DNA of 64,000 bases from Lunularia cruciata. Its lineage: Eukaryota; Streptophyta; Marchantiopsida; Lunulariales; Lunulariaceae. How positions within the stretch are numbered: position 1 is the first letter of the stretch; each line of letters begins with the position of its first letter. The translations under genes and the position numbers were made by a program. Where the stretch lies: assembly GCA_948567375.1 (NCBI GenBank), contig OX419755.1, positions 25,064,517-25,128,516 on the forward strand. Reading direction: 5' to 3'. Shown piece after piece: positions 10,119 to 52,443 of the stretch. The notes beneath the pieces were generated by a model. It saw nothing but the letters and a program-made list of their open reading frames with translations. It made no database searches and had not been told where the DNA came from.

Positions 10119-10917
10119 TTTAACCTTTTGGTCTCTTTTTATATTTATATTATGTTTATATTTATATTTATATTTATTATATTATCTCTTTTTATATTCT
10201 CTACCTACTTTTTGGATTTTGGTCCTCTGAAGTAATAACATAGGAGAATTATGGTTGTGGTCTATAGTCTTGAATGATTAGCTTTCAATCATTAGAGTTT
10301 GAAGATATAGATCATGTCTTATTGCCATGTTCATTTATTTAAATATTTGACTTTGGTCAAATTTTTATTAAATAATATCCTTTCCTTACATAAATTTTCA
10401 TGAAAAGTAATTTTGGTTGATTCCTTAATGTAAGAATGGATGTATTTATCATTCACATTTTTATTAGACTTTGATAATGATAGAAATAATAATTGAGAAG
10501 GTAATGAACCTTGTGATTGAGGACCTTAATTGCCTGTTAGAATACCATCCTCAACCACCTTGGTAAAATCATAGTTAGGAAAATCATTTGGAGAAGATAA
10601 AGTATAGATAAAGATTATCCTATCACTTCTGGATTGACCAACTATACAAAAATTTATTGTATCAATTCAGCTTTTTGGACAAGTCTTACTTGGCAAGAAC
10701 TAGCTAATGAAAAATATAAAAGGAAATTTTATCCAGATAAGATAAATATATGATTGCATCAATGATTAGAATATGCTCCTTGATAGGAGTTTTTTTTTTA
10801 AATCATATTCAAAAGAGTATCAAGAAGCAACGTTTAAGACACATGAAGTTTGTGAGCAAGTTGAATGAATATGTAAAGATTGTAGGGTATGAGTAATGAT
10901 ATGAATATTTCAAAGAT

Positions 10918-10992
10918 GAAAAAGGTGACCACATAGAACACATGAAGGATGGGAAGACCCCATCAACCCCTACAAGGGAGAGACAAAAGAGG
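10918..10992 (-). mobile_element. 3' end fragment of the non-LTR element family
   Basis: About 75 bp match, in the same orientation, the 3' terminal segment of non-LTR copy 2 (starting 22,591) and, as reverse complement, that of copy 3 (near 46,137-46,200). All share the core CATGAAGGATGGGAAG or its complement. Similarity stops abruptly on the inner side, so this is a severely 5'-truncated copy or a leftover 3' end. Confidence 0.65.
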
Positions 10993-20010: not shown

Positions 20011-22590
20011 TATTACAACTACACAAATTCAGGTGAACTTGTATATGGTAAACTTGTATAAATTTTGAGATAATTAAGTGATAGTACACATGTTTTGATT
20101 ATGGTCCTTACATGTGTGACAACTCAATCAACACACAATTGGAGTATTTTAGTAAGTAACAAGTTGATCCCACAAGGATATGGGTCAAAAATGATTGAAT
20201 ACAAAGGGAAATGCCATTGTCCTTTACTATTTAATCTCTATTAGGTAGACATAACTCCTAGATAAGGAAAATGACACCAAGAAGGCACACTATAGAAATA
20301 ATAAAGGATAATCATTTGCTCAAAAGTATATAATTTCAATGAATTTGGAGAAGTGACGGTTCAGAACGAGCAGTGCTCCTCTTCTCCAAAGGCCTCTTGA
20401 AGATTTTTTGAAGATACTTTCTCTACCTTTCCATAGACAAGGGATATGGTCTTCCAAAGAGAGGCCCTTCTTTGGAAGGTGCTTACCTTCCCCAAAGATC
20501 TTTGCTCCTTCCAAAGACCGGAATCTCTGGTGTTCCAAAGATTATATGCATCTCCTTTCAAAGGTACATCATATTGTGGAGTCAATTTACTTCCCTTGCA
20601 AAGGCAAAATGTTCACCAAAGATAATGTACTGCCTTCCAAAGGCCCCGTCCTCAACAAACTGCAATGTTCTACCCTTAAGGCACCATCTTCTTCCAAGAC
20701 CAATGTTCTACCCCTCCGCAAGGCCCTGCCCTTTCCTGAAACCAAATGTGCTACCCTTTGGAAGGCACTATCATCCTGAAACAGTGTTCTACTCTTCACA
20801 AGGCAATGTCTTCACCAAAAACCCAATTTTCTATCCTTCTGAAGGCATAATCTTCATGACAATCTATCCATTTTGGTCTTCACCCTTTAGTTACTTAAAA
20901 CACTATAGCTCAAGGTCATCAAGGCATTTTATCAAGAAATTGCACCAAAGCTAGTGATTAGACACACCAAATCTTGTAATGTTTATTGATCTTCACCAAA
21001 GTGAAAACACAAATCAAGAAAATTTCATGAGAGAGTTTGAGAAGAGCAACAAAGAGCATAAAACCTCTTTAACTTTATTCACCAATTTTTTCTGCACAAT
21101 GTAGCACTTTGAATGCCATGCTTAAATAGCTATAGACACTTGGAACTAAGAACTACAACAAAATCTAACAAATGGTCATAGCTTAATGGACAATCATGAC
21201 CACAACTAGGTGCAATGCTAGGTGGGTATGGAGATGGTATGGCCAAGACATTGTGATGCTCCACTACCTCCTCAATTGGCACTACAAGCTTTGATACCTC
21301 CTCAATTGGCACTACCTCCTCAATTGGCACTACAAGCTTTGATACTAAGAAAGCTCACTCTCAACCTCTACAATGTCACTCTTTGGGCAGCCATTTCTCA
21401 CGGATCAACAGTTGGGATCTTCAAGTTAAGAGCATTCCTAGCAACCCAAGATGCAGTGATCTTCACCATTGTTCTAGCAATTGATGTTCCTCACAAATCT
21501 GCTCTAGATTACCCTCTACTCATTCGGATGCAATAAAATCAATTTTTTGAGGAATGCAAGAATAAAGAAATCTGAAGACCTCTTCATCGTGGCAACTTAC
21601 AGTTTATAGTGGGTTTCTACTCCTTCCTTGCAATGGCCTTCAGTCCCCATCACTTTTTACTCATGTGAGCCATCTTGGAGGTGTTCTTTGCATGTTCTGA
21701 AACGTATATACCGTTGGTCTCTTCACTGAAGACTCTTCTTGCTCTTCCAAAGATAGCCCATCCCATATTCAGAAGACATGATCTTGTCTTCACTTAAGAT
21801 CGTGACCACTATTTTGAAGATACCATTATGGTGAAGAAACTATTCTTCCAAAGACAAGGTCTTCACTCAAAATCCAGTTTTGTGTGATTCTTCCCTAAAG
21901 GTAGATATTTCCTTTATTCTAAAAAAAGGAAAAACATAAAAAAGTAAGAAAATTTCAAATTTCCCAACACTAAAACATGCAATTCAAATCTTGGAGTGGA
22001 TGATTAACCATCCTCTTGGATGTGGTACAAATAAAGCTGATAGCCAAGGTCTCCAAGTAGAGAAGTATCCAACAAAGTTACCTCCTTGTTCTTTTAGACC
22101 AATGAATTTAAAATTGGACAAGAACATAACATACTATATGATGATTGTCTTGTCATTTAGTGTATTAATTTCAGTTTCTATTTTATAATTTTCTTAAGAG
22201 AATGAAATTACATTACTATATAAAAAAAATTAAATATTGCAATCCATAAAAGAGCAAACACATTAAATAATACTTCTTTATATACTATATTGATATTGGT
22301 ATGTAAAATATTCAATTCACATAGTTTTGACATTTGACCTGAATAAGAAGATAGAGTTCTCATTATGATTCCAATGCATTGGGCCTTAGTTCCATTTTAC
22401 TTACTAGGTTTTATCCTTTTAAAAGTGCTGGATGGGGTCTTTTCATCATCCTTATATACTGTGCATCACGTCTCTCATTTCTTGCTACACATTGCCATAC
22501 TCCAATAAAATAGAATGTGACTAAAAAATGGAAATAATTTGCAAAAAACTTACTATTGTTCATTGCTTGCCTGCATGGCGACTTGGTTCT
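20011..22590. repeat. Minisatellite-like arrays between two non-LTR copies
   Basis: No gene is supported. From about 20,360 to 20,850 and again 21,740-21,900 the motif CTTCCAAAG (variants CTTTCAAAG, CTTGCAAAGG, CACCAAAG) recurs every 20-40 bases, mostly in one orientation. At 21,263-21,345 the phrase CCTCAATTGGCACTAC repeats three times with an interposed AAGCTTTGATA. Reading frames of up to 160 codons across these arrays follow the repeat period and show no domain. This may be the inside or the subterminal part of an unclassified transposon. Confidence 0.55.
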
Positions 22591-25500
22591 GAAAAAGACA
22601 ACCATGTAGAACACATGAAGGATGGGAAGACCCATCAAGCCATACAAAGGAGAGACCAAAGAGGCAAAAGAGTGCTAGGCCCCAATAGTATTGATATGAG
22701 AAATCTACCCTATTGTAACTAAGATATCCAAGCTATGCAAGTCATAAGGTTTATAAAATACTTGAGCATCCAAAGAAGCATCACCTAGTGTGATTGCTCT
22801 CTTATGGATTGCACCATCCAATGAGCAATGGACACCCATTGTCTAAAGTATAGTATAAAGTATGAGAGAAAGTGGTACCCCTTGACGCATAATATGATAA
22901 GCTCTCATGCACTCCTTGATAAATGTGTCAAACACCATGTCCTTACTTCATATAAATCCAAAGCTAGAGGAACAAAGAGGTGACCTTGCAACATACCCCT
23001 ATACTTGGAGACCATGTGTGTTGCTACTTTGCTTGCCACCCAGCTAGGAGGATGATCAATCACTCCCTCCAAAACTACATCATGCATACAGTCTGTAACC
23101 ACAACATCCTCCACTATCACCTGATCATCTGGACCAAGTATAAGTTTACTTTGACACATGTTGTTTACAAAGCATACAAATGCTCCATCCAAGCAAGGTA
23201 TCCACTCTCTTGTGCCATAGCAAACATTATATCCTTGATGGCATCATGGGAAGCTATCTTCTGTCATCTAGAAGGACACCATGTCATATGGACCGCTGCT
23301 ACATCTAGTGTAAAATCACACTCATAAGTGAGTAATGAAGATATAAATAGGTGGACCAAACCTAGGTGGAATCTCATTGCTACAAAGAAGGTAACTCATG
23401 CAAGTCAAAATGCCCTAATGCATGGTTGAGCTAGGATCCAAGATCCTACATCCTTGCCATAGTAAAAGCAAAGGCGTGCTCAAGTGGCCCAAGGAATGGA
23501 TGAGTCAACTAAGAGAGAATGTAGCATATGTTGACATTGTTGCTCCATCAAAGAAGACTACAAACTTTTGGTCCAATCTAGTGGTAGTGAAGCAAATGAT
23601 GGAAGGTCATCTCGTGCTCATGGGGATAGATCATCTCTTGTCTATTGCAAGAACACTTGGAGAGAAAGGCATCCCTCCTCCACCTTGGTGACATATGGCT
23701 CCAAAATTGGCTACTCAACAACCATAAAATGGGAGGAAAGTAGGGGTACCAAGAAAGCCCAACTACCCAAAAATGCTATAGGTGTTGTCTCTTCCATAGA
23801 TAATAGGCATACACCTATACAAGATTGGTAGAGATGTATGTCTCGTGCCAGACTCCTCGTCACATACTCAAATGTCATTGGTCCAATGACACCAAAGACT
23901 CTATAATCCTCCTATCAAAAGCTCTCAGATGGGATAAGAAAGTCAAGGAAGGAAGTATTTTGTAGAGAAGGTAAGTTGGTCGATGTGGAATGCAAGAGGA
24001 GAGTATACAAAATGCCACTAGTGGATCTCCTATTAGAGGAAGGTCTTCCACATGGAGAATATCCTCTGCAAGGGTAGAGTATAAGAAGCATATGACAAAA
24101 TCCTTGGATCCTATTGGCACTCCAAGAATACATAGTCCACCTATAGATGTGACACACCTCTCTAGAAGCTCAATTTGGGGAGGGATACTTGAAAGGAACC
24201 ATACTTTGCTCTTTGACACCTTGACTCTCAAGCCTACAAGGGTAGTCAAGTGATCAAAGGCTTGCCTAATCTGATCTACAAGATCCAGAATGTGTGTATT
24301 GTCTGCCAAGAGGGAAAAACATAACCTAGCATGGCCAAAGTAGAAGATAAGAGACCTCTGAAGTGAGCCATGGCAAACAAGGGTCCTCCTAAAGGATCTC
24401 CCTATTGTGTACCAACAACTAACTCCAAGATGGTGACTCCCTCTTGTGACCAACCATGCTGGTAGTGAAGGGAAGCAAGAGATTCATAGAACAACTACAC
24501 AAAAGGAATGAGACTCATCAAGGATCCACTAGCCTCCCTAATCTCTCTAGAGATGGATGCCAAAGAGATGTTATTAAAAGTGTTCTTAATATGCACCGGT
24601 TGGACAACCCACTCTAAATGGATATCTAGGAGTGCATTGATGCCTAGAGATATAACCTCACAACCTCTATGTGTAGCTACTACAAACTGATGTGGACTGA
24701 GGTGCTCTTGAAAGTGAGAACGATGTTGAATGAAAATGGTGAGGCTAATCAAGCACAAAAAGATCTCTCTATTAACAATTGACCTCATGCACCTTATATC
24801 CTTCTCCATTTCAAGAAGTCAACTAGCACGTGACACTTGATTAACTTATGTAGGAATATATCCTCTTGCTACTACCATAATCACTTGAAACAGCTTGGTA
24901 AATTCACTAGAAAGATCATCTACCTAAATGTAATCTCTAGGATGTTCATATACCATTCTTGACAAGCCTCTTGAGGAGATTCAAGGGGTAGTGCACAATG
25001 CCTATGCAAAAAGCACCCTATCAAGACATAAAAGCTACTTGGGTTGATAATCTAAGACCTCTAATGGTATTTCCTATCCTGCCATAGGATATAGTGAGCA
25101 TAAGGAAGAGATATTCTAATCTATGGGACTAGCCATAAACAAAGGATGTAGTGCTCATGCTGCTCTACTAAACTCTCATGCTTGACCCAATGTCCTACAC
25201 TATCATAATTGAGTGGACTCTATGGTATCATGTGGTAGAACTTGTCTCATAAGACGTTTAGCCCTAACCGACTCCTCCTATAGGGAAGCCCAATCTCCCA
25301 CTCAGAATCAACAAATCTAACAGCCACCTCTCTATGCCCTACACATCCTCCTCTAGCATCCCAAGGCACCATCAAGGGAGTAAGAGGAATAAGAACCATG
25401 TTAACTCGTCCAAGGGATCATGTGCCAAACTATCAAATGGTAGGCAAAAGCCTATCTAGCCTCATCATGGAGTATAGGGGGTAGCCTGTGGAATAGATGT

Positions 25501-26295
25501 GGATATGGTAAACTAGTCTCAAATAACCTCAAGATATAAGCCTACTGAGATGCTCACCACTCCCATGACTTGATTGGTATTCCTAGAATGGTCAACAAAG
25601 AAATAGAAGAATCATGCACAATCTTGAGTGTAATCTCTATCAATGTGATCGATCACTTGAGCATCCAAGTGGTCCAATCATATTCCTTGTGCATCCTTCA
25701 CACATGGATCTTTACCCCTTGTGAGGTAAAGCTCAATGATTCACCAGGCATGGTGTATCCCAAGTTGATCTAGGCACCCCACATGGGAAAGTGTAGTCAT
25801 GGCTAGTACAAGAATAAGAATAATAACACACGATACTCCTCTCCATATCTCCCTATATTTGCAAAACTACAACCATTAACATCCCAACTCACATGAGTAA
25901 ATGTTATCTCTCCAAACCCTAAAAACTATAAACACTTATGACCTTCAATTCTCATCTCCAAAAAAATTTAATTAGGCATTGGAACTTAAGCATAAATACC
26001 AAAAGATAAGGAATGAAATTTTACTACCCATCAATCTCAGTGTGAAATTTTCCATGTGAAGTACTCACTCTAAACCTAAGAAGAGCCTAAGTCTTCATAA
26101 TTTTCTATTCAATTTTTAATAGCCTTCAATCCAGGTACCAATGGAGCCTAAATTGAAAAACAAAAAACAGAATAGACTATTCACTCACATACTATATGCA
26201 AGGGAGCTCTTTAAAACTTGATAATATCTTTTCTCTCATTTCTCCCTGTCTCTCTCTAGGGTGGCCGCCTCTCTATTCTCCCTCCTCTTTAAGAG
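22591..26295 (-). mobile_element. Non-LTR retroelement copy 2 (near full length, dead)
   Basis: Read on the minus strand it is collinear with copy 3 from the leader (about 26,240) to the 3' end (22,591). Visible parts in order: the former finger near 25,690 (only the KIH...MH half remains); the RT block A region (LDIHLEW...NTF, about 24,600); the catalytic box as LADN instead of LADD near 24,300; VLGVPIGS-type motif near 24,115; and LRAFDRRI near 23,910. The endonuclease-like segment at 23,192-22,905 reads ILEGVIDHPP-like, with KYRGM after it. Many stops and the lost Asp make it dead. Its 3' end is neither polyadenylated nor A-rich. It gives an empty site for the LTR present in copy 3, and also extends the 5' leader slightly further than copy 3. 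Confidence 0.8.
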
Positions 26296-28218: not shown

Positions 28219-28408
28219 CGCCTCAATGTATTCCCTCATCACTTGCTTACACAGCTCTACTCATCCAGTTTGAGCTGAGCTACAACTTCAATTGATCTCA
28301 AGCAGCTGAGCTTGGAATCAGCTAAGAGCTCCCAATCTTTTAGAGTGGAAAGTAGGGAGTTTAGGCTTGTAGTTTCGGGTCTCTAATTTATATATTTATA
28401 TATACACG

Positions 28409-29095
28409 ATGGGTCAGAGTATGAAGATGTTCGCTCTTCTCTTTGTAGGGTTTTCGATTGTAGAAGTGATTCAAGCATCAGATCCAGACCCGCTGCAGGA
28501 CTTCTGTGTAGCCGATTTGAATCAGCCACTATTTGTGAACGGATTCCCTTGCAAGGACCCGTTAACGGTCACTGCGGATGATTTCTCATTCGCAGGCATA
28601 GCTGAAGCGGCGAATCTTACGGGCAATCCAGTTGGTGCTGCAGCCACGTTCGGGTTTGTGCGTGACTGGCCTGCACTAAATGCCCTTGGACTCTCTATAG
28701 CTCGTCTGGACTTTGCCCCAGGAGGTGTGATCATGCCTCACACACACAATTTGGCAACTGAAATTTTGTTCGTTCTGGAAGGAGAAGTGTATACTGGTTT
28801 CGTGACGAACAGCGACAATTCGGACCTTCAGAACAAGTTGTATGCCAAGACTGTGAAGAAAGGCGAGGCGTTCATCTTCCCCAGAGGCCTTCTGCATTTC
28901 CAGATTAACAAGGGAACCGTAAATGCTGCTACCGTGAACATGCTGAATGGTCAGAATCCAGGCATTCAACTCATTAGCATTGCAATGTTCGGCACTGGCA
29001 TCGATCCGGAAGTGTTGATCAAGTCGACCTTCATGCCGCCTGAGCAAGTGGCTAACGTCTCAGCCATCTTATCACAATTCGTAGAATTATTCTGA
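28409..29095 (+). CDS. Germin-like protein (cupin), single exon
   Basis: A 228-residue germin-like protein of the cell wall and apoplast. The first in-frame ATG (28,409) is followed by a hydrophobic signal peptide (residues about 5-24, cleavage likely after Ser24). The mature start has the paired Cys33 and Cys48 of germin box A. Box B carries the metal ligands His111, His113 and Glu118, and box C carries His163, so all four Mn ligands of the family are present. Box C has KGE rather than RGD. N-glycosylation sequons are at Asn69 (NLT) and Asn216 (NVS). Length and the absence of an intron in the coding part fit the family. Known members form very stable oligomers and some have oxalate oxidase or superoxide dismutase activity, but the sequence does not decide which. 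The position after His-Thr-His is Asn rather than the usual Pro. The gene appears intact and stands alone in a low-repeat island. Confidence 0.95.
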   Translation: MGQSMKMFALLFVGFSIVEVIQASDPDPLQDFCVADLNQPLFVNGFPCKDPLTVTADDFSFAGIAEAANLTGNPVGAAATFGFVRDWPALNALGLSIARLDFAPGGVIMPHTHNLATEILFVLEGEVYTGFVTNSDNSDLQNKLYAKTVKKGEAFIFPRGLLHFQINKGTVNAATVNMLNGQNPGIQLISIAMFGTGIDPEVLIKSTFMPPEQVANVSAILSQFVELF

Positions 29096-37070: not shown

Positions 37071-37075
37071 TTTAG

Positions 37076-37386
37076 TGTAGAATATCAACTAGTGTGAACA
37101 TTGATAATATAGAGTAGGCCAAGGCTTCCGGAAGGGTGCAAAGGGGTTGACACCCCTTGGCCCTCAGCCCCCTCTTCGGGTATAGATCACTTTGTATCTC
37201 ATTCCTTATTCATTCATTCTTATTATTATTATTATTCACTTTGAGTCTTTGGCAATTCTCTCTCTCCTTCTTGAGGCTCACACACACACTCTTGTCCATG
37301 ATCTCTCTAGTCGACTTTGTCTAGCTTTCCCTTCATGGTATCTTGTCCATGATCTCTCTAGTCTACTTTGTCTAACTTTCCCTTCA
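37076..37386 (+). repeat. Copia 5' LTR (311 bp)
   Basis: Begins TGTAGAATATC and ends TTCA directly before the primer binding site. It is longer than the 3' LTR (249 bp), mainly because a 51-bp unit near its end is duplicated (37,291-37,341 and 37,342-37,392). It contains a TTA-repeat microsatellite. Confidence 0.92.
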
Positions 37387-37392
37387 TGGTAT
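37291..37392. repeat. 51-bp tandem duplication across the LTR/primer-site boundary
   Basis: The unit starts CTTGTCCATGATCTCTCTAG and ends CTTCATGGTAT, so it includes the last part of the LTR plus the first six bases (TGGTAT) of the primer site. The 3' LTR has only one copy. Confidence 0.9.
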
Positions 37393-37398
37393 CAGAGC
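37387..37398 (+). other. Primer binding site, initiator tRNA-Met type
   Basis: TGGTATCAGAGC, immediately after the 5' LTR, is the standard plant Copia primer site complementary to the 3' end of initiator methionine tRNA. Confidence 0.93.
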
Positions 37399-37539
37399 AT
37401 GGGTTGTTAGAACTAGCATGCCAATAATATAGGTGATAGTTAGAAGTAGACTGCGATCAAGGAGCCCCCTGATTGCATGTGTGGAACGCTCCTCGCACAA
37501 TAGACTGCAGTGCTAAAAGAGCAAGCTTATGCTCAAGCA

Positions 37540-38376
37540 ATAAAACTGTACAAGATGATGGCCCCATTCAATGCCAAAGGCTGTGCAATCTTTGTTGGGA
37601 CATTCTTTATGTTCTGGAAACATAAAATAACTCTCCGCCTTAATGCGGAAGACCTTGATATAGTCAATGGAACAACACCCTGTCCTTGAGCAGCAACACC
37701 AAGTGGTACAGCGACACCCGCTGCCACCGGTATTGGTCTTGGGAGTGTCACGGAATGGGACAAGAGAAATAAAAATGCTCTCACTGTGATCAATGGATGT
37801 TATGACAACTTGGTTGTCGTGCACATCCTCATGTGCAAAACAGTGCACGATGCATGGACAACTCTAACCAACAACTTTGCTGGCCAGGACACGGTAACAC
37901 AGATGCATCTCCATGAAAAGTTCAGGCTTTTGCTTTTAAAACCCAATGAGACCACTACTTTGCATATCAACAATTTCAAAGTGCTGGTCCAACAGCTAGC
38001 CTCATCAGGTGTTATTGTCAGCGACAAAGAGCAGATCCTTACTTTAATGGGCAGCATGCCACCAAATAACCAGACATTCTTACATGCTATGCGTACTAAG
38101 CCCGCCCTCACACTACCAGATCTCATCTGTTTCTTGGTCAAAGAAGAAACCATGTCCAGGAAAATGTCCATGGAACCCTCCACAGCGCTATTTGCTAATC
38201 AAAGGCAGCAAGGGCATGGCAGATCAAACAACCGTACATATTTTCAACCACCTCTCAAATGCCCGCTTGATGCAAGTGAACATTGTTTCAATTGCAGTAA
38301 GACAGGTCTCCGCATTGCAGACTGTCTCAACCACACCAGTAGCAGAAACCAACAACAAAATTCCCATAACCGCTAA
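37540..38376 (+). pseudogene. Copia gag (UBN2-type) with zinc knuckle
   Basis: The frame from about 37,546 to 38,376 has one TGA near 37,687. The part 37,786-38,376 (196 codons) is open and resembles the UBN2 gag domain, with a DAWTTLTNNFAG-like stretch near residue 25, followed by a C-terminal knuckle CFNC...DC in which the His of the CCHC pattern is replaced. Gag would package the element RNA in cytoplasmic particles. The lost His and the stop mean it is not functional. Confidence 0.85.
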
Positions 38377-38451
38377 CCAGAAGGCCGCTCAAATAACTCA
38401 GAGCGTGGCAGACAACCGTGCAACAACAACAATAGTGCATGACGCATCCTC

Positions 38452-38919
38452 ATGACCATGCAATCAATGGAGATGAGCACATTGTTGCCAGCTGATCCTA
38501 TATGGTATGTGGACACTGGTGCCACCCACCACATGGCACATAATAAGCGTCAATTTATTAATTACACGCCATACAACAAAGAGAATCAACAAAACAACAA
38601 AATCCTCCTCAGTGATAACACCATTGCCTACATTGATGGCACCTTCACAATGGAAATCAAGCTCCTGAATGGCAAATGCATACACATCCAAGATGTGCTA
38701 CATGTGCTAGTGCTACACAAGAATCTCTTCTCCGCAAGGCAATTTCACGCAAAAGGCGGTTGGTGTCTCATCGGCAACCGCATCTGCTACCTTGAAGATA
38801 AGTATGGACATAGCCTATGCTCTTGTTCACTTTCTAAAAATCTGTATTTGCTAGGCAACTCCATGTTCCCCATGCACACACAGCCTTGTTTCACACCACT
38901 GCCACCTCTAACAACATAG
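38452..38919 (+). pseudogene. Copia protease region
   Basis: The frame has the retropepsin active site WYVDTGATHHM near 38,503 and the typical downstream strand order (LHVLVLHKNLFSARQF, where a hydrophobic box matching LLFSVSQL of other elements is expected). Upstream the frame is not continuous with gag, and downstream it stops at 38,919 before a long GC-rich linker. The protease would cut the gag-pol polyprotein. Confidence 0.85.
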
Positions 38920-39343
38920 ACGCGCTACCTCCTAATTGTGCCCCGTAGCCACGCGTCCGTCAAATCTCCAAGTGCACCAACTTTGTGCTTCCCAATCACA
39001 CTGTCACTCACTCTCCAGCCAAACACTCCTAAGTGAAGTCCCTCAGCCCTCATCCGATTCCTTGTTGCCCTCCCAGACAAATGAACCATAATTCTCACTT
39101 TCTTAAAGTCCACCCCTCCTTGCAGCCTGAATAGACACAAGACGCCATTTAATCAAGAATTCATTGAAATTTTTCCCACGATTGGATCCACCCATGATCC
39201 TCCATACAGATTTCCTCCCCTGGCACCACCAAGCATCATGCCCCTAGACTTACAAGATGGCCTTCCCAACAGACGTTGGGAGGGTGACCCCCCGGCTCAC
39301 CTCTTCCCTATGACGCCTCCTCACGCGATTGGCCTCCTCACCA

Positions 39344-39382
<39 letters not shown>

Positions 39383-39740
39383 GGCCTTTGCCTCCTTCTG
39401 AGTGTGTCCCTCTATGGGCCTAGTGCCATGTGGGCATCTGGGCCCTTGTCCCCTTGTTCTGCCCAAGGGGGAAGCACGCCCCCCTATGGGCACATTACCA
39501 TGGGGCAGCGGGGCCCATCCCCCCTCCCTCTGGACCCACTGCTCCAATGGCCACAAGACCCTCTCCCTCTCTCATTGGCTCTGATCTTGCGGGACTTCCC
39601 CTTTTTGCCACATGTCCTCCCACTTGGCAAGAGTGCTCTCCCTCCACTCATGTGCCTCTCTCATCTCGACACACAATGCTTTGATTTGGGAATCACCTCC
39701 TTGACAGTGTCCCTCCCGCACCCACTTACGCTGCTTGCTT
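38920..39740 (+). other. GC-rich Pro/Ser linker of the Copia pol with G34 run
   Basis: Between protease and the pre-integrase zinc region lies about 820 bp that encodes no known domain. Its translation is rich in Pro, Ser and Leu in all three plus frames. A run of 34 G residues occupies 39,348-39,381. GC content here is far above the rest of the element. It may be an element-specific spacer or a small captured fragment. Confidence 0.6.
39348..39381 (+). repeat. Homopolymer of 34 G
   Basis: An uninterrupted run of 34 guanines inside the Copia linker. Such a run can form a G-quadruplex and is prone to length error in both replication and sequencing. Confidence 0.97.
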
Positions 39741-40919
39741 AGCTTCTGTGCACAATCTCAACACCCCTTGGCATCATCACTTATGCCATCTCAGCATGCA
39801 ATGCCTTGACCATCTCCACGTCCAAAATTCTATAATGGCCTGAACTTGAAGCTTGTACATGACCATATTTGCCCTAATTGTCAACATGGCAAACAGCCTT
39901 GCACAAAATTCCCATGCATAGCAACAACTTGGGCCACCGCACCACTAGAGCTTGTCCACACCAATATTAGTGGCCGCATTTCACCTTGCACCTTCTTGGG
40001 CTATGAATACTTGCTGACATTTATTGATGATTACTCTTGACATACCGTTGTCTGGTTATTCCACTATAAGAGCACTTGCTTCCAAGCTTTCAAGGAATTC
40101 CATGTCTTTGCCGGTGGCAAATTGGACACAAGCTGAAAACCCTTTGCTCTAACAATGGTGGTGAGTATTGCTCCATGGCGTTTGATGCCTACTATCTCCA
40201 ATTTGGCATTCAGCATCAATTGACAATTCCGCATTTCCCTCAACAAAATGGCATTGCAGAGCAAAGGATCACACTTTACTAAATTTCATTCACTCCATAC
40301 TCCACACATCTGGCCTCCCCAAACCATGTTGGGTGAGGCCATCACTTTTGCCAACTACATGCAAAACCGATGTCCCACCAAGGCCTTTGAGCCTCACATG
40401 ACCCCCTTCCAATTGTGGCATAATTGTAAACCCAACATTTCTCACTTACATGTTTTTGGGTGCATTGCCTATTCCCAAGTTGTTGGCCATCTCCAATCCA
40501 AACTGGATGATCATTCCCATGCATGCATCATGTTAGGGTATAGTGCACATAGTAAGACTTATCACCTTCAGCAAAAATCTGACAGTCATACTTTTGTCGC
40601 TTGTGATGTCGTCTTTGACAAGTCCCCTCTAGCTCTTGCTCATTTCTCTTCTTTTCACAATCCATCCATGCTTCTTGAAGACCTCTCTTTGAACAGCATA
40701 CAATTCTACAACCACACTCTTGTTCCAACTGTTTCTCGACTACACGTCCCTCCAGTTTCAATGGGAGCTTTGCTCCCTCCCATTGTTGCGCTTTCCATTG
40801 TTCTTCTAGTTCTTGTTCCACCCATATATCACATACTTACTTCTAGTTCTGGAGGAGGAGGCGCTACATTGACCTTGACTCCATCAATTCCTTTGAGCCT
40901 ACTCTCTAGTAGGAGTTGA
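39740..40919 (+). pseudogene. Copia GAG-pre-integrase and integrase
   Basis: The pre-integrase segment has HxxxCHLS near 39,785 and CPNCQHGKQ near 39,870, completing the HHCC finger. The catalytic core follows with FIDDYS near 40,025, then NNGGEY near 40,150, where the second catalytic Asp of D-N-G-G-E-Y is replaced by Asn, and NGIAE near 40,250. There is a stop after FIDDYS, a frameshift around 40,262 and a final stop at 40,917. The C-terminal part (40,340-40,620) keeps VFGCIAYSQV and LGYS motifs. Integrase would insert the cDNA into the genome; this copy is inactive. Confidence 0.9.
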
Positions 40920-41737
40920 AGACCGGAACATGTGACTCCTTTGACCATACCAAGGTCACCAACATCTCCATCTAGTTCTTGGTAACAATATTCTCTTGAA
41001 GCTCAGAACATCAGCAAATTCCATCCTTACTTGAAGAGAACATTGCCAAGCATTCAATAACATTGGCCACCAACAGAGATCCAAGCACTAGAAACAACAA
41101 GCGTTGAATCTCCGCATGCTCCACATGAAGAGATCCCCTTCACCAACATTGACTTCAGATCCTCCAGTACTTTGATGTTCAACTTGACAATCATTGCCTC
41201 CAAGGCGCAACCCTACAAAAGGTTATGACCTCCTTCCTGGTGGTTCTAAATAGAAGAAACCTAAGAAACCAAAGGACACCTTGCTGGTAACATTAAACCA
41301 ATTTGGGACATTTGGAAGAATGTGGAGATGGGAGAGGAAAGATCTATACTTTCTGAGAGTTATCTTGCACATAGCACTTGAGTGAATAGTTGATTTTGTT
41401 TGTTTTTTGATTTTGGTTCCATTGATACTTAAAGTGAAGACTATGGAGAATTGAGTAGAAAGTTAGAAGTTCTTTAGGTTTTATAGGGTTTAGAGTGATC
41501 ATTACACATTGACAGTGATGGGTTAGGAATTTTCATTTCTAATCTCTTGATTTTCATGATTAAGTTCCATGGGAATTTAGTTTGAAAATTTTGGGGATGG
41601 AAATTGAGAGTTATGAGAGTTTATAATTTTCTAGGTTAAGAGAGATTGTATTTTCTTATGTGAGTTGGGATGTGAAGGGTTGTGGTTTGGCAGGTATGGG
41701 GAGATAGAAAGGAGCATGTGTTACTATCATTATTCTT

Positions 41738-42103
41738 GTGCTAGCCATGGCTATACCTCCCCATGTAGGGCCGCTTAGAGCGGTTAGGGATACATCATGC
41801 TCGGTGTGTCACCAATGCTTTACCTCGCAATGGGTAAAGACCCATGTGGGAAGGATGCACAAGGACTGTGATTGGACCGCTTGGAATGCCCACATGAGGC
41901 AAGCAACCATATCAATGGTAGTGACACTTGGGATTACGTATGCTTTTTCTATTCCATCGTTGACCGTTCTAGGGATATCGCTCAAGTCTTGTGAGTGGTT
42001 AGCTTCTCCTGCGGGTTGCATTTTGGGGTTATTTGAGACTAGTTTTCCATGTCCACATCTATTTTTTAGGCTATCCCGCACACTCCATGATGAGGCTAGA
42101 TAA
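41738..42103 (+). pseudogene. Zinc-finger N-terminal ORF piece of non-LTR copy 3
   Basis: An open frame of 121 codons beginning at an ATG. Residues around 21-41 hold C-x2-C (plus an extra Cys), then after 11 residues H-x4-H, a fair C2H2 finger. Downstream of it DCDWTAWNAHMRQ is shared with copy 1 as DYDW. The finger presumably bound DNA or the element RNA. The frame ends at a stop where copy 2 appears to continue, so the protein was originally longer. Confidence 0.6.
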
Positions 42104-42634
42104 GCTTTTTGCCCACCACTTGATCATTTGGAACGTGATCCCTTGGACGAGTTAGCATGGTTCCTATTCCTCTTACTCCCTTGATGGTGTCTTTGTTATA
42201 ATAGAGCGTAACGTGTAGGGCATAGAGAGGTGATTGCTAGATTTTATCTATTTTGAGCATAGGATTGGACGGCCCTTCAGGAACAGTCTGTTAGGGCTAC
42301 ATGTTTTAGGAGACAAGTTTCACCATAGGATACCATAGAGTCCATTTGATTATGATGGTGTAAAACATTGGGTCAAGCGGGAGAGTTTAGTAGAGCAGCA
42401 CGGGCGCTACACCCTTTGTTTATGGCAAGTCCTATTGATGAGACTATCTCCTACGCTTACTACATCCTATAGCAATAGAAGGACTACCACTTGAGGTCTT
42501 AGATTATCAACCTAAGCAGTTTTTATGTACTGATAGGTCACTTTTTGCACAAGCATTGTGCATTGCTCCTTGGCTTTCTTCAAGAGGCTTGTTAGGGATG
42601 GTTTATGAGCACCTTAAAGATTGCTTCCAGGTAG

Positions 42635-43672
42635 ATGATCCTTCTATATGAGGCTATATCTCTAGGCTTTAGGGCACTCTTAGATATCCATCCAGAGTGG
42701 GTCGTCCTACAAGTGGATGTTGAGAACACTTTTATAGTGTCTCATGTGCATCCATCTTCAAAGAGCTTAGGGAGGCTTGTGGATCCTTGGCAAGTCTTAT
42801 TCTTTTTGTGTGGTCTTTTTATGGCTCTTCTACTTCTCTTTACTACTAGCACTGTGATTTGCGAGAGAGAGTCAACATCTTGGAGTCAATTGTGGCTACA
42901 TGTCAAGGAGATCCTTTAGGGAGACCCTTATTTGCCATGGCTCACTTTAAACCTCTCCTATCTACTACTTTGGCCATGCTAGGTTGTGCATTTCTCATTG
43001 GTAGATGATACACACATCATGGGCCCTGTAGATCAGATTAGACAGGCCTTTGACCACTTGACTACTAAGCTACATCTAGTAGGCTTGAGAGTCAAGGTGT
43101 CAAAGTGTCCACTATAGGTATTCCTCCCAACCCTGAGCTTCCAAAGGGGTGTGTCACATCTATTGATGTACTATGTGTTCTTGGAGTGCCAATTGGATCC
43201 AAGGAGTTTGTCACATGCTTCCTAGATGTTGCTCTTGCAGAGGATGTTCTCGATATGGATGATCTTTTGTTACTAGGATATCTTCAGGTGGCATTTGGTA
43301 TACTCTCCTCTAGTATTTCTCATCGACCTTCTTACTTCATCCATATAGTTCCTCCATCCATGTCCTTCTTATCACATAAGAGCCTTTGATAGGATGATTA
43401 TGGGAGTCTTTGGTGATAATATTGCACCAAGGACATTTGAGTCTATGATAAGGGATTTGGCACAAAGACAAATGGCTCTATCAATCTCATGTAGAGGGGT
43501 TGGCTTGATTTATATGGAGGAGATTGCACCTATAGCATTTTTGGGTAGTTGGGCTCTCTTGGCACTCCTACTTTCCTCTCATTTTGTGGTTGTTGATAGG
43601 CTGGTCTTGGAGATTTATGTAATAGAGATGGAGGGAGATCCTTTTCTTTCTAGATGTTATTGCAACATATGA
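42635..43672 (+). pseudogene. Reverse transcriptase region of non-LTR copy 3
   Basis: Three frames are needed to follow it: 42,635-42,919 (block A, then shifted), the shifted part with QGDPL and LVDDTHI up to 43,080, 43,105-43,389 (VLGVPIGS and the thumb-side region) and 43,394-43,672. The order of blocks is that of non-LTR reverse transcriptases. The catalytic box is L-V-D-D, where most LINEs have F-A-D-D. It would copy the element RNA at the nicked target site. At least two frameshifts and internal stops are visible. Confidence 0.75.
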
Positions 43673-44321
43673 GAGATAGTCTATCCCCATAGGCACAAGA
43701 AGACTTTCCATCTTTTGCTTCATTATTGTTAGATTGGACTAGATGTTTATAGTCTTCCTTGATGGAGCAATAGTGTGAGCATACACTACATTCTCTCTTA
43801 ATTGACTCATCCATTCCTCAAGCTACTAGACCACATCTTTGCTCTTGCTTTGGCAAGGGTGCAGGCTCTTGGATCATAGCTTGACCATGCATTAGAGCAT
43901 TCCAACTCGCACTAGCTACTTTCTCTACAACAATGAGGTTTCACTTAGGTTTGGTTTGAAACACCCATTTGTGCATGTATGGGGTATTGTGATATTTAGC
44001 TTATATAAAAATTATTTGAGAGATATTATTTATGTAGATAAAGGATGGTTGTACATTAGTCATGGTTAGCTAAAGTTAGTCATAGTTAAGATAGTGGAGA
44101 CCTTACTTTAGTGGAAGTGGAAAAGATGAGCACCACTATTTTGGATTCTAGTGTGTTGACTTGGTATTATTCCTAGGTGTTTGGCTTTGAGGAAAGAGTT
44201 TAGAACTATAATGCTCCAAGGACAAGAGAAGAGAGAAAACACAAATTTCACACTCAATCATCCAATGCTCCAAAGGAGCACCTTCTCTTTATTATATAGA
44301 CAAGAGGATCTCCTCCAAGGA

Positions 44322-44360
44322 AGCTCCATAAGAAGCACCATAAGAAGCACCATAAGAATA
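44322..44360. repeat. 12-bp minisatellite
   Basis: CCATAAGAAGCA occurs three times in a row within the solo LTR, the last unit partial. Confidence 0.85.
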
Positions 44361-44645
44361 GGCACACAGATAGGTGACATGTCAGCAAGCTCCACCCTTG
44401 TATTACTTACTTGGATGGGTGACATGTCAGTCCTGGTCCTATCTGGTTGGTCAAACAAGTTTTGACCAGAGGGAATCTTTTAGAGAATCTTCTTATAAGA
44501 ATCTCAAAATCACATGGGTGAGATATCATTGGAAAGCTCTCGATGAAACAAACTAGGGGGAGGAAAGGCCATCCTTTCTTCTATTGGGGGTAAAAGTACA
44601 CAATTTTGAGGCCTAATTCATCCGTTTAGGCTTCCAAAATTGCCT

Positions 44646-44968
44646 TCAAAGATTTCAAGCATATTTTGGTTCCTACTCTATTAGTAGAAGTCTCCTTTTG
44701 GTGATATCTCTTTCTGATCTGTTTAGTCCATCATGTGTAACATCCTTCCATATGTTACCAAACCAATTCTCACATTTAATTCATATGTCTAGCTATTTGT
44801 TCTAAGGTTTTCAAGTCTATTTTGGTTTTTGCTCTATTAGTAGAAGTACTCTTTTGGTGATACTTCTATCTGATCTGTTTTGACCATCATGTATGACATC
44901 ATGTATGACATCATTCCAGATGTTACCAAACCAAATTTCACATCTAAATCATATGGTTAGCTCTTGGT
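44646..44968. repeat. Two tandem units of about 155 bp in the solo LTR
   Basis: Units starting near 44,646 and 44,801 share TTTCAAG...ATTTTGGTT, CTATTAGTAGAAGT and ATGTTACCAAACCAA in the same order. The second also contains a 14-base local repeat (CATCATGTATGACA). Repeated units in an LTR upstream of its TATA box often correspond to enhancer modules, which is only an inference here. Confidence 0.8.
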
Positions 44969-45578
44969 ATTACAAGAACTCTTGGACGCACAAGCCCTTT
45001 TGTTTTGGATTCTTCTATAGTCCAAGAATAGCCCATGTGAAGGAATCCTTGACTTAGTGGTCGGTTCAAGATAAGATCACATACTTAGTAGAATATTCCC
45101 ATGTGGATGGATATTCCTTTATAATTTTTTACTTTACTTGACTTTTAGCCTAGTAACTTGAGTTACTTTGATAAATAGTAACTTTAGTGCATAACTATTT
45201 CATCAGTATATAAACAAAGGATGAGGAGGTACTTAATGTCCTTTCATTTGCAACTATCTCTCTTTCATTGAGTTCTCTAGTGATCAATGTCTTGAGTCTT
45301 GGAGTGTTAGCCTTGGAGGAGTATGATGGAGTTAGGGTTCCTTGCCTTTTAAGTCCATGGTGTGCTACCATAATAGCCATCAGAGGTTCATCCTAAGTGA
45401 GAGACATGCCGGCTCATAGGTCCACCTATTTGTATCTTCATTACTCACTTCTGAGTATGGTTCTACACTAGATGCAGCAGCGGTCCATATGACATGGTGT
45501 CCTTTTGGAGGACAAAGGATAGCTCCTCATGATGCTATTAGGGACATAGTGTTTGCTATGGCATGAGAGAGTGGATAC

Positions 45579-46115
45579 TTGGCTTGGAGGGAGCATTTGT
45601 ATGCTTTGCAAAAAACACCTATTAAAGAAGACTTATACTTGGTCCGAGATGATCAAGTGACAATACCGGATGTCATGGTTATAGACCCTACACAAGATAT
45701 AGTTTTGGAAGGAGTGATTACCCATCCCCCTAGATGGGTGGCAAGTGCAGCAGTAGGTCGCAAGGTCTCCAAGTATAGGGTCATGCAATAAGGTCACCTC
45801 TTTGTTCCTCTAGCCTTGGAGTTATATGGAGCAATGGACACAATGCTCAACACATTTGTCAAGGAGTGCACAAGAGCTTATCATGTTAGGCACCAAGGAG
45901 TACCACTCTCTCTCTCAAACTTTGTAGTATATTTTAGGCAGCGTGTGTCCATTACTCTACAGAGGGCAATGGCTGGTGCAATCCATAGGAGAGCAATCAC
46001 ACTAGGTGATGCTTCCTCGGATGCTCTAGTTGTTTGTATACCACACAACTTGCATAGCTCTAATATCTTAGGTGCAGTGGGGCAGATTTCTCATATAAAC
46101 TCTATTGGGGCTTAG
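45579..46115 (+). pseudogene. Endonuclease-like C-terminal segment of non-LTR copy 3
   Basis: Two frames (45,579-45,791 and 45,816-46,115) in the same register are separated by a single stop. The first has P-D-V-M-V-I-D, then IVLEGVI and KVSKYR, an order compatible with a PD-(D/E)xK nuclease. The second reads LALELYGAMD and FRQRVSITLQRA, and matches the minus strand of copy 2 at 23,192-22,905 in its first part. Restriction-like endonucleases of R2-type elements nick the target DNA at this position in the protein. The assignment rests on motif order only. Confidence 0.5.
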
Positions 46116-46219
46116 CCCTATTTTACCATTTTCATCTCTCCCTTGTACAACTTGATGGGGCCTTCCCATCCTTCATTTTTTCTACACGGTCATCCTTCTC
46201 TCATTAAACCAGTGCCTAT

Positions 46220-47790
46220 GGAACCTATATCATATAAAGATGCATTGTCTGCTCCTAATGCTAAAACAGTGGGAGAAGGCCATACATGAGGAACTCAAGT
46301 CTCATGATGCTAACAAAACATGGATGTTTGTTGACTTGCCAAAAGATTGACGTCCAATAACAAATAAATGGACATTCAAGTTGAAGTTGAACTCAGAAGG
46401 CTCCATCTCACGCTATAAAGCATGATTGGTAGCATGAGGTTTCACTCAAATCTACAGACTGGACTACACGGATACATTCTCTCTAGTGGTAAGAGTTCAG
46501 TCAATACATTTGATTTTAGCAATTTCAGCCCAACACAACATTCATGTTCACCAAATGGACGTGAAGACTGCTTTCCTGAATGGTACTTTAAATGAGGAGA
46601 TATACATGAACATTCTTGAAGGAGTGACTCCACCAAAAGATGGTCAAGTGTGTAAACTATTCTGCATGCTACATGGCATAAAAAAATCCTCATGAGAATG
46701 TTACTTAATCATCAACAACTTCCTCACATCTCTTGGCTTTGCTAAGTCTGGAGCCAATGGGAACGTCTACTATTTTTATAAGGGAAATAAGTTTGTAATC
46801 TTAGCCTTGTATGTGGATGACACCAGTATTGCAAGTAGCCACATAGAGTTGTTGAATTATGTCAAAGAACAACTTAGCTCCAAATTCCAGATGATAGACA
46901 TCGGGCCAGTTCATCATTGTCTAAGTATCGAGATTGATAAAGATAGGTCACGTGGATGGTTTAGACTAAGTCAATCCTTATACCTGACCTAAAATTTATA
47001 TCAATTTGGTCTCAAGAACTGTAAACCAACCAGTACGCCCATGACTCCTAATGAGAAGCTACTAGTCGACGACCCCCAATCAACGAGGAGGAGAAGGTCC
47101 AATGCACCACTTACCCATATCAGAGTGCAGCGGGATCAATCAACTGGGCAGCAGTGTGTACCCGCCCAGACTTGGCGTATACAATAAGTGTGTTGTCACA
47201 ACACATGGTAAATCCAAGACCGACACACATCAAAGCAATGAAAAGAGCTTGTAGATACATCAAAGGAACTCTCAACTATTGTATTGAATACAGGTATACC
47301 TCTCAGCCACACTCCCTCTTCAGCTATTGTGATGCTTATTGGGGAGGTGACATTCAGTCAAGACGCTATACATCTGGAAACTAATTTATTTATTCAAATG
47401 GAGCAATAAGCTAGTTTTCCAAGCGACAATAATCAGTAGCATTGTCAAGTACAGAAGATGAGTATGTAGTGCCAAGCACTAGCTCTTCCGAGGCTATCTG
47501 GCTCCATCAACTCCTCGCAGACCTCAGATTGAAAGATCAAGAACCAACTATTATATTCTGTGATAACCAAAGTGCTATCGCACTTGTGGATACTTCAAAG
47601 TTTCATGATTGAACAAAGCACATCAATATTAAATATCACTTTATAAAAGATCAGGTTGCTCAAAATATCATAACAGTATAGTACTGCCCAACAGCAGACA
47701 TGGCAGCTGATATATGCACTAAGAGTTTACTAGCTCCCAAAATAGAACATTTATTACAAGAGCTAGGACTGCTTAGAAATAATCACTGAG
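46220..47790 (+). pseudogene. Copia reverse transcriptase and RNase H
   Basis: After the nested element the Copia coding resumes. The RT shows KWTFKLKLN (46,370), QMDVKTAFLNG (46,553), where the first catalytic Asp lies, and LYVDDTSIA (46,808) with the Asp pair. TRPDLAY (47,158) and an RNase H end with FCDNQSAIAL (about 47,560), TKHI and ADICTKSL (about 47,707) follow. Stops interrupt the frame at several places (for example near 46,349, 46,425, 46,694, 46,992 and 47,384). It would synthesise the element cDNA in virus-like particles. Family assignment is secure; function is lost. Confidence 0.93.
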
Positions 47791-47796
47791 TGGGAG
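47787..47796 (+). other. Polypurine tract of the Copia element
   Basis: The purine-rich GAGTGGGAG directly precedes the 3' LTR and is the usual start site of plus-strand DNA in plant Copia elements. Confidence 0.85.
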
Positions 47797-48045
47797 TGTA
47801 GAATATCAACTAGTGTGAACAGTGATAATATAGAGTAGGCCAAGGCTTCCAAAAGGGTGCAAAGGGGTTGCAGCCCCTTGGCCCTCAACCCCTCTTGGGG
47901 TATAGATCACTTTGTCTCTCATTCCTTATTCATTATTATTATTATTCACTTTGAGTCTTTGGCAATTCTCTCTCTCCCTCTTGAGTCTCACGTACACACT
48001 CTTGTGCATGATCTCTCTAGTCTACTTAGTTTAGTTTTTCCTTCA
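47797..48045 (+). repeat. Copia 3' LTR (249 bp)
   Basis: Starts TGTAGAATATC and ends CTTCA, followed by the TTTAG duplication. It has one copy of the unit that is doubled in the 5' LTR and differs from that LTR at about 14 alignable positions by eye. Confidence 0.93.
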
Positions 48046-48050
48046 TTTAG

Positions 48051-49399: not shown

Positions 49400-50675
49400 C
49401 ATGCCAAGGGGGATCAATTGTTTAGAACTAACCAGAAATATTAGAAAATGTATTCAATGGATGATTTGGTTAGATTTAGAGATATCGCTACAAGGATTAG
49501 AAGATGAAGACGAGGAATTAAGAGGAGATTTAGATATGCTAGAATGTTTTATTAGTGGATGGGAGTATGCACATACACATCAATACTTGGAACCCCGTGT
49601 TACTTACCCTTGTAGCAATAGTGGATTTGATTAAGACACACAATTTTTGTGAAATGGTACCAAAGAGAGCAAGCACTTGTGTGGATCCAAGTTGCCCTAG
49701 CATTGGATAGATTTGGGCATCACGGCAATGGAGCTTGTGTTGCACGGGGTTTAAATATTTGGAGCATTAGTGCTGGTTCAACAATTACTTGTACTGATAG
49801 AGTTATGACAGCCATATTAGATATGATGAGGATTCAAGTTGCTTGGCCCAAACTTGAGGAGAGGAGGAGGATGTCCACTATTTTTGCACAGAAAGGTTTT
49901 CCCGGTTGTGTTGGTTTGGTAGATGGAAAAATGTTTCCTCTTGCAGCCCGACCAACTGTAGATGGGGAAATATATTTCAGCTGCAAGGGTTCATATTCTA
50001 TAAATGGCCAAGTTATTTGTGATCATAAAAGGAGAATTATACATTTTTCCAAAGGTATGTTTTATGTTATGTGTTGTTTTGTTAGGTATTTTTTTAATGC
50101 ATTGGTGATCCTTTTTGTATAGTTTACTAAAATTATGGCCTGATTTTTTATTTGCAAGACTGCCAGAATCATGTCATGACATGACTTGTTTGAAAAAATT
50201 GTCATTATGGAATGATTTGAACCTAAGAGGGAGATGTCTCACTTTTGAGGCAAAGGAGTACCTTTTAGGTGATTCGGGTTATGTACCCATGCATCACCTA
50301 GTCCCCGCTTTCAAGCAGGCTCAATTATAGGACAAGCAAGAGTTTAATAAATATTTAGCAAAGGCAAGAGTGATAAATGAGCATTGTATATGAGTATTGA
50401 AAGCTAGATGGCATTCTCTTTGTGAGCTAAGAGTGCAACTAAAAGACAATAGTAGAAATGCTTATTTGTTAAAGTGGATATCGGTGTATATTATTTTACA
50501 TAATTTTTTAATCAATAGGTCTGACCTTTGGTCAGAGGATGATGGCGGATTTACAGATGAAACTCAAATAGATTCAGAAATGTCCTTTTATGGTATAGAA
50601 CTTGGTAGAGAAGGAAGTAGATCAAGGGTGATGCAACATTACCTTGATTATAACAATGATGATATACTAGATTGA
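49400..50675 (+). pseudogene. PIF/Harbinger transposase pseudogene (DDE_Tnp_4 type)
   Basis: Frames 49,649-50,055 and 50,115-50,675 carry the domain in order: an N-terminal helix-rich part, GLVDGKMF with the first catalytic Asp (about 49,916), GSYSINGQV, DHKRRI, then SCHDMTCLKK (D-S-type loop, about 50,170), LLGDSGY with the second Asp (about 50,270), INEHCI with the Glu (about 50,380) followed at once by TGA, where Gly is expected, and LKARWHSL then ILHNFLI. A possible intron (donor AAAG/GTATGT near 50,059, acceptor near 50,120-50,158) could join the frames, but the phase does not close neatly. The transposase cuts and joins the element ends in the nucleus. Frameshift and nonsense mutations make it dead. 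Confidence 0.88.
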
Positions 50676-52133
50676 TTGAGATTCCATATAATGAAATATA
50701 TATTTTTCAGTTATTCATCTCATATCTCATAGTCTGGTAACTTAGACCATGAGTCTTTATCTTAGACCATGAGTGTATCTTGATGTAATATTGGGATAAG
50801 AATTCAAAGGATGCAAAAAGAATTCTATGAAGCTTAATTTGCACATTTGTAAGGCCTCCGTTTACACTTACAAGGTGTGTTGTTTAGCAAGTTTACACTT
50901 GAAAGTCACTTGTCAAATGTTGTTGGAAAAAAGTGTGCCGATGTTGCAGACACCGTGAGATGGCACTCATACACGCTTGTACACGTTGGAGGCCGCTCAC
51001 AAACTTAAAAAATGCTTCCGGGTCATCAAGTGGCGCCTGCCGGTGCCACTCGATGGCACTTGTAGACGTTGGCGGACATTGGAGACCGCACTCCAATATG
51101 CACAAATATTAATGCACTTGTTGGCACTGGTAGATGTTGGTAGGCGCTGGTAGGTACTGCGTGAAATATGCAACACTTGCTTGCACCAATTGGTGATGTG
51201 GAGTGCCGCATGTTGCCGCTTGAGATTTGAGTTCTTTTGGTTGAAAAATGAAATTTTTCCCCCAAAGTGTACATTTAGGATGTTTGGTATTGACTTTTTT
51301 TTTGCAACTACCTAGGTTATATAAACCTTCTTCTTTTCAATTCATGTCATTCCCATGGGTGTGGAGGTGTTAGAAAGCCTTATTTGCGAGTGTGTGGGGT
51401 GTTGGAATGAGAAAGGGTCATTTCATGAGGGTGTGTGTGGGTGTGTGAGTTGTTTGAAGGAGAAAGAGCTATTTTGAGAGTGGGGTTTTCAGAAGGAAAC
51501 ATACTCACTCGAATGAGGCAAACTGGCTGAAGCCCAACTTGAAGGAGACCAACTCAAAGGACACTAACTCGCTGTAGAGGGCCTGGGAGTGTTGGGAATT
51601 TGTGACCAGAGAGTTGGAATTTTGAGAGTTTAGTTGAGAGGAAGAATTCCAATCACATTTCTAATTGAAGGAGTGCTTTGGAGACTCTAGAGAAACGACA
51701 AGGAGAGATTGAGAAGAGAGATAAGGAGAGCATTTGAGAGATTGAGAGCAGATTCAATTTGAACCATGGCAGAAATCTGGGGATACAAAAAGATAGTTGA
51801 CAGGCCCAACATGGAAGGAGAAATACTCAAGAAGAAAGATTGGCTCATAGTATTCCATAGCATTCAACACCTAGCCAATTTCATCAAGTGGTGCTGGATG
51901 GACAAACATCAGATTTGAACTATTGTTTTCTGGATTTAGGAGATTGATTTAGATGTAATGGGGCTCAAAATAACTCTTGGACTTCACTATCCACAGCCAG
52001 AGGTATTCTTCAAACCTTCTTCATTGTTTTCTCTTCATTCAACCTCAAGATTTTCATTTAATTCATGTTTATTACTTCCAAATCATCAGCACCTCCCAGC
52101 TTGGCATGCAATGCTTCCCAGCATCCTTTCGCG

Positions 52134-52443
52134 CCATCCAATGCCATCTAGCACCATCTCCAAACCCTAAACCCCTACGCGCAACCGCCTTCCTGTGACC
52201 CTGCACGGCACCTAGCATTTCTGTGGGCTGTGCGGACCTCCTTGCGTCTCCCTACCTGTCCCGCAGTGCCTACCAACGTCCTCCCGTGCCATCTAGCGCC
52301 GTCCAATGCCATCCCCAAACCCTAAACCCCTATGCGCAAGTGCCTTCCCGTGACCCGCATGGCACCTAGTGCTTCCGTGGGGCTGCACGTGGCTCCTAGC
52401 ATCTCCATCACTGTCCCGCAGCGCCATCCAACGCAGCTGCGCC
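52134..52443. repeat. 155-bp tandem duplication with teloboxes
   Basis: Units from 52,134 and 52,289 share CAAACCCTAAACCCCTA, GTGACCC, GGCACCTAG and CTGTCCCGCAG in the same order. Each holds one AAACCCTAA telobox (52,162 and 52,317). The units have diverged by substitutions and small indels. Confidence 0.8.

Follow-up and report, generated by a model that had tools for sequence, protein, structure and literature searches.

Copies of a retrotransposon in the window

The stretch of DNA analysed here, called the window, is 64,000 nucleotides long and comes from Lunularia cruciata (assembly GCA_948567375.1, contig OX419755.1, positions 25,064,517 to 25,128,516 of the forward strand). It carries three copies, A to C, and one short stub of a long interspersed nuclear element (LINE). 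They are very probably the dead copies of a LINE with a single open reading frame and a restriction-like endonuclease (RLE), built on the plan of the R2 group and multiplied in a land plant. Loci excised from elsewhere in the genome are numbered L010-L038; the frame of one of them, L022, serves for residue numbering. The features in the window are as follows, RT standing for reverse transcriptase.

10917-10992, reverse strand: 3'-end stub of a truncated copy (BLASTN)
17486-20001, forward strand: copy C, the oldest and most diverged (BLASTN)
22590-26245, reverse strand: copy B, decayed (homology to copy A over 22601-26245; 3' end placed by eye at ~22590)
41291-41300, forward strand: target-site duplication of copy A, 5' side, CATTAAACCA
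41301-46201, forward strand: copy A, a decayed full-length copy with a 1.46-kb insert nested in it (homologous to copy B and L010-L038; 10-bp target-site duplication on both sides)
41795-41860, forward strand: C2H2 finger of copy A (residues 39-60 of the L022 frame)
42650-43190, forward strand: RT of copy A, frame-shifted (~245 bp deleted, still present in copy B at ~24663-24907)
42998-43009, forward strand: LVDD, the RT active-site motif of copy A
~43956-45418, strand not given: insert in copy A, unrelated to the element (gap against copy B)
45450-45500, forward strand: zinc-knuckle position of copy A (first two Cys lost)
45630-45776, forward strand: predicted restriction-like endonuclease core of copy A, E-D-x12-D ... 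K-x2-K-Y (L022 residues 917-965)
46113-46201, forward strand: 3' untranslated end of copy A, a pyrimidine end with no poly(A) (two hairpins: GATGGG-GCCTT-CCCATC, and GGGGCTTAGCCCT, which overlaps the stop codon where this region starts)
46202-46211, forward strand: target-site duplication of copy A, 3' side, CATTAAACCA

When positions 41001-46600 were compared with the window by BLASTN, copy B was recovered at 26245-22601 on the reverse strand with 76-80% identity and copy C at 17486-20001 on the forward strand, in pieces, with 65-75%. The stub matched at 10983-10922 on the reverse strand (83%) with copy A as the query and at 10992-10917 (87%) with copy B. An earlier, sequence-only reading of the window had described three collinear copies and a 3' stub; all four are there, and "collinear" holds only within copies, the middle one being on the minus strand. 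Since copy A is flanked by the 10-bp CATTAAACCA repeats, it is a full-length insertion of ~4.9 kb, counting the insert. No target-site duplication was found for copy B. Copy C was also considered as a separate live family; this was rejected because its identity to the 40 other scored genome matches never goes above 71%.

None of the window copies has an intact frame. Copy A retains the finger and the RT blocks LQVDVENTF, QGDPL and LVDD, which are spread over different frames with intervening stops. In copy B the corresponding motifs read PVHIKNTF, GDPLGG and LADN, and the pieces that were read have lost D917, K961 and one RT Asp; copy C is still worse. The shared blocks of the earlier reading are present in copy A, in split frames, and degraded in the other two. 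The differences between copies A and B, taken block by block, show no consistent codon periodicity, as expected of copies decaying after insertion. Pfam detected no RT in the fragment peptides of the window copies alone, and the copy A pieces joined with X reached RVT_1 at only 9e-4, under the curated cut-off; the same joined pieces were too decayed to serve against the structure library. The proof of the plan comes from other copies in the same genome.

Better-preserved copies and their reading frame

The genome (565.8 Mb in 74 contigs) was searched at the DNA level with copy B, and 40 of 11,661 first-look candidates were scored, giving at least 45 matches located on eight contigs. Among these, the long matches are 77-81% identical to copy B and, besides copy B itself, at least 22 span 3.4 kb or more of the 3.65-kb query. 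The sequences of thirty loci were excised, copy B (L009) and 29 others (L010-L038). The latter are mostly near full length, at ~3.7 kb, and 92.4-97.5% identical to L022 over the main match, compared to 85-87% for copy A. The open frame of L022, with 1077 residues (1055 from the first Met), is the longest among the 29 loci; other long frames are those of L017 (936 residues) and L038 (852). When 28 loci are compared with L022, differences amount to 3.8, 3.1 and 4.4% at codon positions 1, 2 and 3. This third-position excess is only mild, so most of the changes probably arose after insertion. The high identity to L022 among the 29 loci suggests that the family was recently active and probably mobile until recently.

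The L022 frame holds, in order, a finger, an RT, a Cys-Cys-His-Cys knuckle and a predicted C-terminal restriction-like endonuclease. Pfam places RVT_1 at residues 357-591 (E 2.1e-15). The C2H2 finger, C-x2-C-x11-H-x4-H, matches zf-C2H2_4 at E 0.028, below cut-off, with the unrelated DUF2225 (E 0.033) over the same region. An apurinic/apyrimidinic (AP) endonuclease upstream, which the earlier reading had named, together with a C-terminus lacking a nuclease fold, as one result that would speak against it, gave no Pfam match at E<=10 in the L022 frame, and neither Myb, protease nor RNase H was matched there.

Compared with solved structures at E<=1, the L022 frame gave only three matches, all of them R2 retrotransposon proteins (9nl2 at 7.5e-7, 9nl3 at 1e-5 and 9dou at 1.6e-5). 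Each has, in addition, a weak collinear second stretch over the knuckle and nuclease. A profile of 14 stretches found the same three proteins at 1e-8 to 6e-8, along with one unrelated chain at 0.55. Among solved structures the RT matches R2 and not L1, and neither of the two refuting results named in the earlier reading was obtained.

The evidence for the nuclease comes from the C-terminal part. Residues 840-1077 of L022 score 63 and 58 against two R2 stretches in Smith-Waterman alignments, while shuffled sequences average ~25.5 (standard deviation 4) and none of 2000 reaches either score. Seven L022 windows starting at residues 1 to 601 score 22-29 against the R2 stretches. The segment RADLYLVRDDQVTVADVVV aligns with R2 KPDLIFVKEEMALVVDVTV without gaps, scoring 32 over 22 residues, which makes D917 and D930 the counterparts of the two acids of R2. 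In R2Bm the catalytic residues are given as Asp996, Asp1009 and Lys1026 (PMC10499050), and the catalytic lysine of R2 is described as the first of K-x2-K-Y, on a helix (PMC5678591). The L022 frame reads R-x-D-x12-D (D917, D930), then K961-V-S-K-Y965, and a C-terminal restriction-like endonuclease with D-x12-D and K-x2-K-Y is accordingly the predicted domain.

The sequence-only reading had pointed to this segment by a P-D-x4-D motif. The segment stands, and the register was one strand too far downstream: the equivalent of the R2 K-P-D is R/K-x-D at L022 residue 917 (copy A ~45630), and the P-D of that reading is the second acid, residue 930. The P-D register was rejected, as it scores 3 against 32. 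The D-x12-E spacing does fit in this low-scoring register, and E943 may act as the acid.

Key residues are retained in most of the 29 loci (counted with copy B left out). In the RT, D526 and D527 are each kept in 27. The knuckle keeps C857 in 28, C859 in 27, H869 in 29 and C873 in 28. In the nuclease, D917 is D in 27, N in one and missing in one; D930 and E943 are found in all 29; K961 is kept in 28 and missing in one; and Y965 is kept in 27, with one N and one missing. The plan proposed earlier, a finger, an RT and a C-terminal restriction-like endonuclease, is found in a single frame, that of L022.

Insertion sites, ends and copy number

Duplications were sought at 28 loci, copy B included, as exact repeats shared by the 5' flank and the stretch lying no more than ~10 bases from the 3' end. 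L031 and L032 were left out, since their main match ends short of the 3' end. Target-site duplications of 9-13 bp are present in 16 of the 28, and mismatched flank pairs reach 9 in 6 of 756. Two of the loci, L017 and L035, are 5' truncated and still have duplications. The bases beside the 3' ends, which the earlier reading had wanted tabulated, were compared at 17 sites (the 16 and copy A): duplications are present, and no column lies above 0.52 bits, the 99% null, which gives no sign of a fixed target. Insertion is dispersed and targeting relaxed, with no clear shared target. In its use of sites the element is unlike R2, which is site-specific.

The element ends in ...GGTCGCCTTTTTT(C), followed by the duplication. 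This is an oligo-T end; the claim that the 3' end lacks poly(A) was correct for the copies. Two short hairpins lie near it, one of them over the stop codon. The folds of L022 and copy A show both, and the second of the two is seen in those of copy B and the stub as well; total fold energies at the 3' end are unremarkable (z -0.2 to -1.8). A 24-base word from the 3' end (copy B, stub), allowed up to 2 mismatches, has 3,068 matches in the genome (1,502 + 1,566) and the reversed word has none. Many of the matches may stem from copies truncated at the 5' end, or from shorter elements with the same tail. Judged from such matches, the genome holds thousands of whole or partial copies.

At several 5' junctions there are extra bases between the duplication and the element. 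For example, in L025 and L035 these are short tandem repeats of the target. In L037 the stretch between the duplication and the element start (positions 1390-1442) contains 19 bases that match the 3' end of the element itself. The R2 RT is known to jump between templates, and this junction resembles such a jump, which is a possible explanation of a single case; a further 3'-end piece lies ~200 bases upstream.

Weighing the explanations

The reading as an R2-group LINE draws on computed results: the domain order, the homology of RT and of knuckle and nuclease to R2, and the conserved catalytic residues, and further the common 3' end, the short duplications, some 5'-truncated copies and the many 3' ends. 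Several results weigh against it. No duplication of at least 9 bp was found in 12 of the 28 loci, among which L011 had its 3' end misplaced by hand. The knuckle of L022 (residues 857-873) is C-x-C-x9-H-x3-C, unlike the published spacing for RLE LINEs of C-x2-3-C-x7-8-H-x4-C (PMC5678591). The distance from D930 to K961 is 31 residues, compared to 17 in R2Bm, so that an insertion must be assumed unless E943 takes part. The C-terminal part of L022, compared alone with solved structures, found no nuclease and nothing relevant, and folding the copy A nuclease from its single sequence gave a mean pLDDT (predicted local distance difference test) of 33, which is unusable. The nuclease is therefore a prediction from sequence.

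Could this be an ordinary LINE of the plant L1 or RTE type, with a zinc-binding region at its C-terminus that merely resembles an R2 nuclease? The prior for this is high, since a 2024 tree puts plant LINEs in L1 and RTE only (PMC11288735), and the unusual knuckle spacing would fit. It is nonetheless the least probable of the rival explanations: the 1077-residue frame already starts with a finger and has no AP endonuclease, the only solved RTs matched are R2 proteins, and the C-terminal part matches R2 above all shuffles. A Dualen/RandI-type element, which has both endonucleases, could have lost the AP domain or encode it apart. Dualen elements occur in green algae, which would be the nearest place to search. 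With the RLE alone in the L022 frame, and the ~0.46 kb of element upstream of its first Met too short for an AP domain, such an origin is highly improbable.

A site-specific element of R2 or NeSL/Utopia type, inserting into some repeated sequence that was overlooked, is very unlikely too. Four of the five RLE clades are described as mostly target-specific (PMC4640811), and at the 17 sites T at +4, with 0.49 bits, lies above the 95% null (0.37), and A at -1 is level with that null. This is about as expected from 17 columns, however, and none of the 17 reaches the 99% null. The genome matches are spread over eight contigs, and Rfam found no family in the window at gathering scores, hence no rRNA or U2 gene there. 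The R2-group LINE with a single frame thus remains the preferred reading.

Proposed mechanism

By its anatomy, we infer, such an element would work as R2 does, with nicking, priming and RNA recognition, as well as the recent activity, being the conjectural parts. The protein would bind the 3' end of its own RNA, and the finger region would contact the target DNA. The C-terminal nuclease (R-x-D-x12-D ... K-x2-K-Y) would nick one strand, and the RT would then copy the RNA from the nick, a process termed target-primed reverse transcription. Cutting of the second strand ~9-13 bp away would leave the short duplications, and relaxed targeting would give rise to dispersed copies.

Comparison with known elements

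R2 elements (R2Bm, R2Tg) likewise have a single frame with an N-terminal finger, RT, knuckle and a C-terminal D-x12-D and K-x2-K-Y nuclease. Apart from the longer spacing between D and K, the plant element differs in having one finger and no Myb match, and in having A, E or V in place of the P of the R2 K-P-D. Insertion at a fixed 28S rDNA site, a trait of the R2 clade, is likewise absent from the plant element, which is dispersed with short duplications. By anatomy the element would work like R2, the target specificity of the R2 clade is not seen, and the assignment made here is to RLE LINEs, the R2 group in its wide sense.

Other RLE clades can be compared by description only. Many HERO families are described as not site-specific (PMC4640811), and HERO would be the closest named clade by behaviour alone, not by tree. 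CRE, R4 and NeSL/Utopia share the RLE plan, and target-site duplications are reported for CRE and R4 (PMC3636483). These clades differ from the plant element in being mostly target-specific, and no protease or RNase H is matched in the latter.

The L1 and RTE LINEs of plants are also dispersed, with 5' truncation and short duplications. They differ in their N-terminal AP endonuclease, and in having poly(A) or simple repeats at the 3' end where the present element has oligo-T.

A more far-reaching proposal, possible if somewhat doubtful, is that the element represents a separate clade of RLE LINEs in land plants, apart from the five RLE clades that have names. Its members would have lost site specificity and reached thousands of whole or partial copies, and would be marked by the oligo-T end, the shifted knuckle and a nuclease insertion between the second acid and the lysine. 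Such a clade could be an ancient survivor of an RLE stage in plant LINE evolution, or it could have come by horizontal transfer. RLE LINEs are held to be older than those with an AP endonuclease (PMC4640811). No land-plant RLE LINE turned up in searches of the open-access literature (PMC5348765, PMC4640811 and PMC10499050 among the papers), and descriptions in Repbase or preprints are possible. Relatives were likewise not found in viral contigs (searched with the copy A pieces and the L022 frame) or genome contigs (L022 frame), collections other than those of plants.

If true, an RLE family with many copies and recent activity in a land plant would mean that this old type persists there or entered there. 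The many natural insertions would allow the study of an RLE element working without a fixed target. R2 proteins are described as under development for DNA insertion (PMC12222951), and the element would offer a plant-adapted relative of them. With so many copies, it should be easy to detect such families in other plants too, and vertical descent versus horizontal transfer is directly testable.

Nesting and neighbourhood

Copy A is nested in a Copia-like long terminal repeat (LTR) retrotransposon at 37074-48046. An LTR-like pair at ~37074-37336 and 47795-48046 surrounds it, 88.6% identical with gaps, and TTTAG stands beside both ends of the Copia-like element by eye. Pol fragments lie between the repeats; the frames, also judged by eye, are Gag-like and integrase-like at 37690-40919 and RT-like at 46438-46992. 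The insert within copy A begins TGAAACACCCATTTGTGCATG. A closely similar beginning, TGTAACACCCATTTGTGCATG, is found after the broken-off 3' end of L032, so the insert probably represents the LTR, or a solo LTR, of some repeated element.

As for the host, the genome has one match to a LEAFY SAM exon. Among solved structures, Ginkgo LEAFY is its sole relative at E<=0.001, so the host genome is that of a land plant. In the rest of the window, close direct duplications lie at 7359-7678 (117 nt, 90%) and 52093-52356 (109 nt, 75%). By eye, an intact-looking 240-aa frame at 28373-29095 resembles a germin-like (cupin) protein, and a frame at 49631-50122 resembles a piece of a Harbinger-type (HARBI1-like) transposase.

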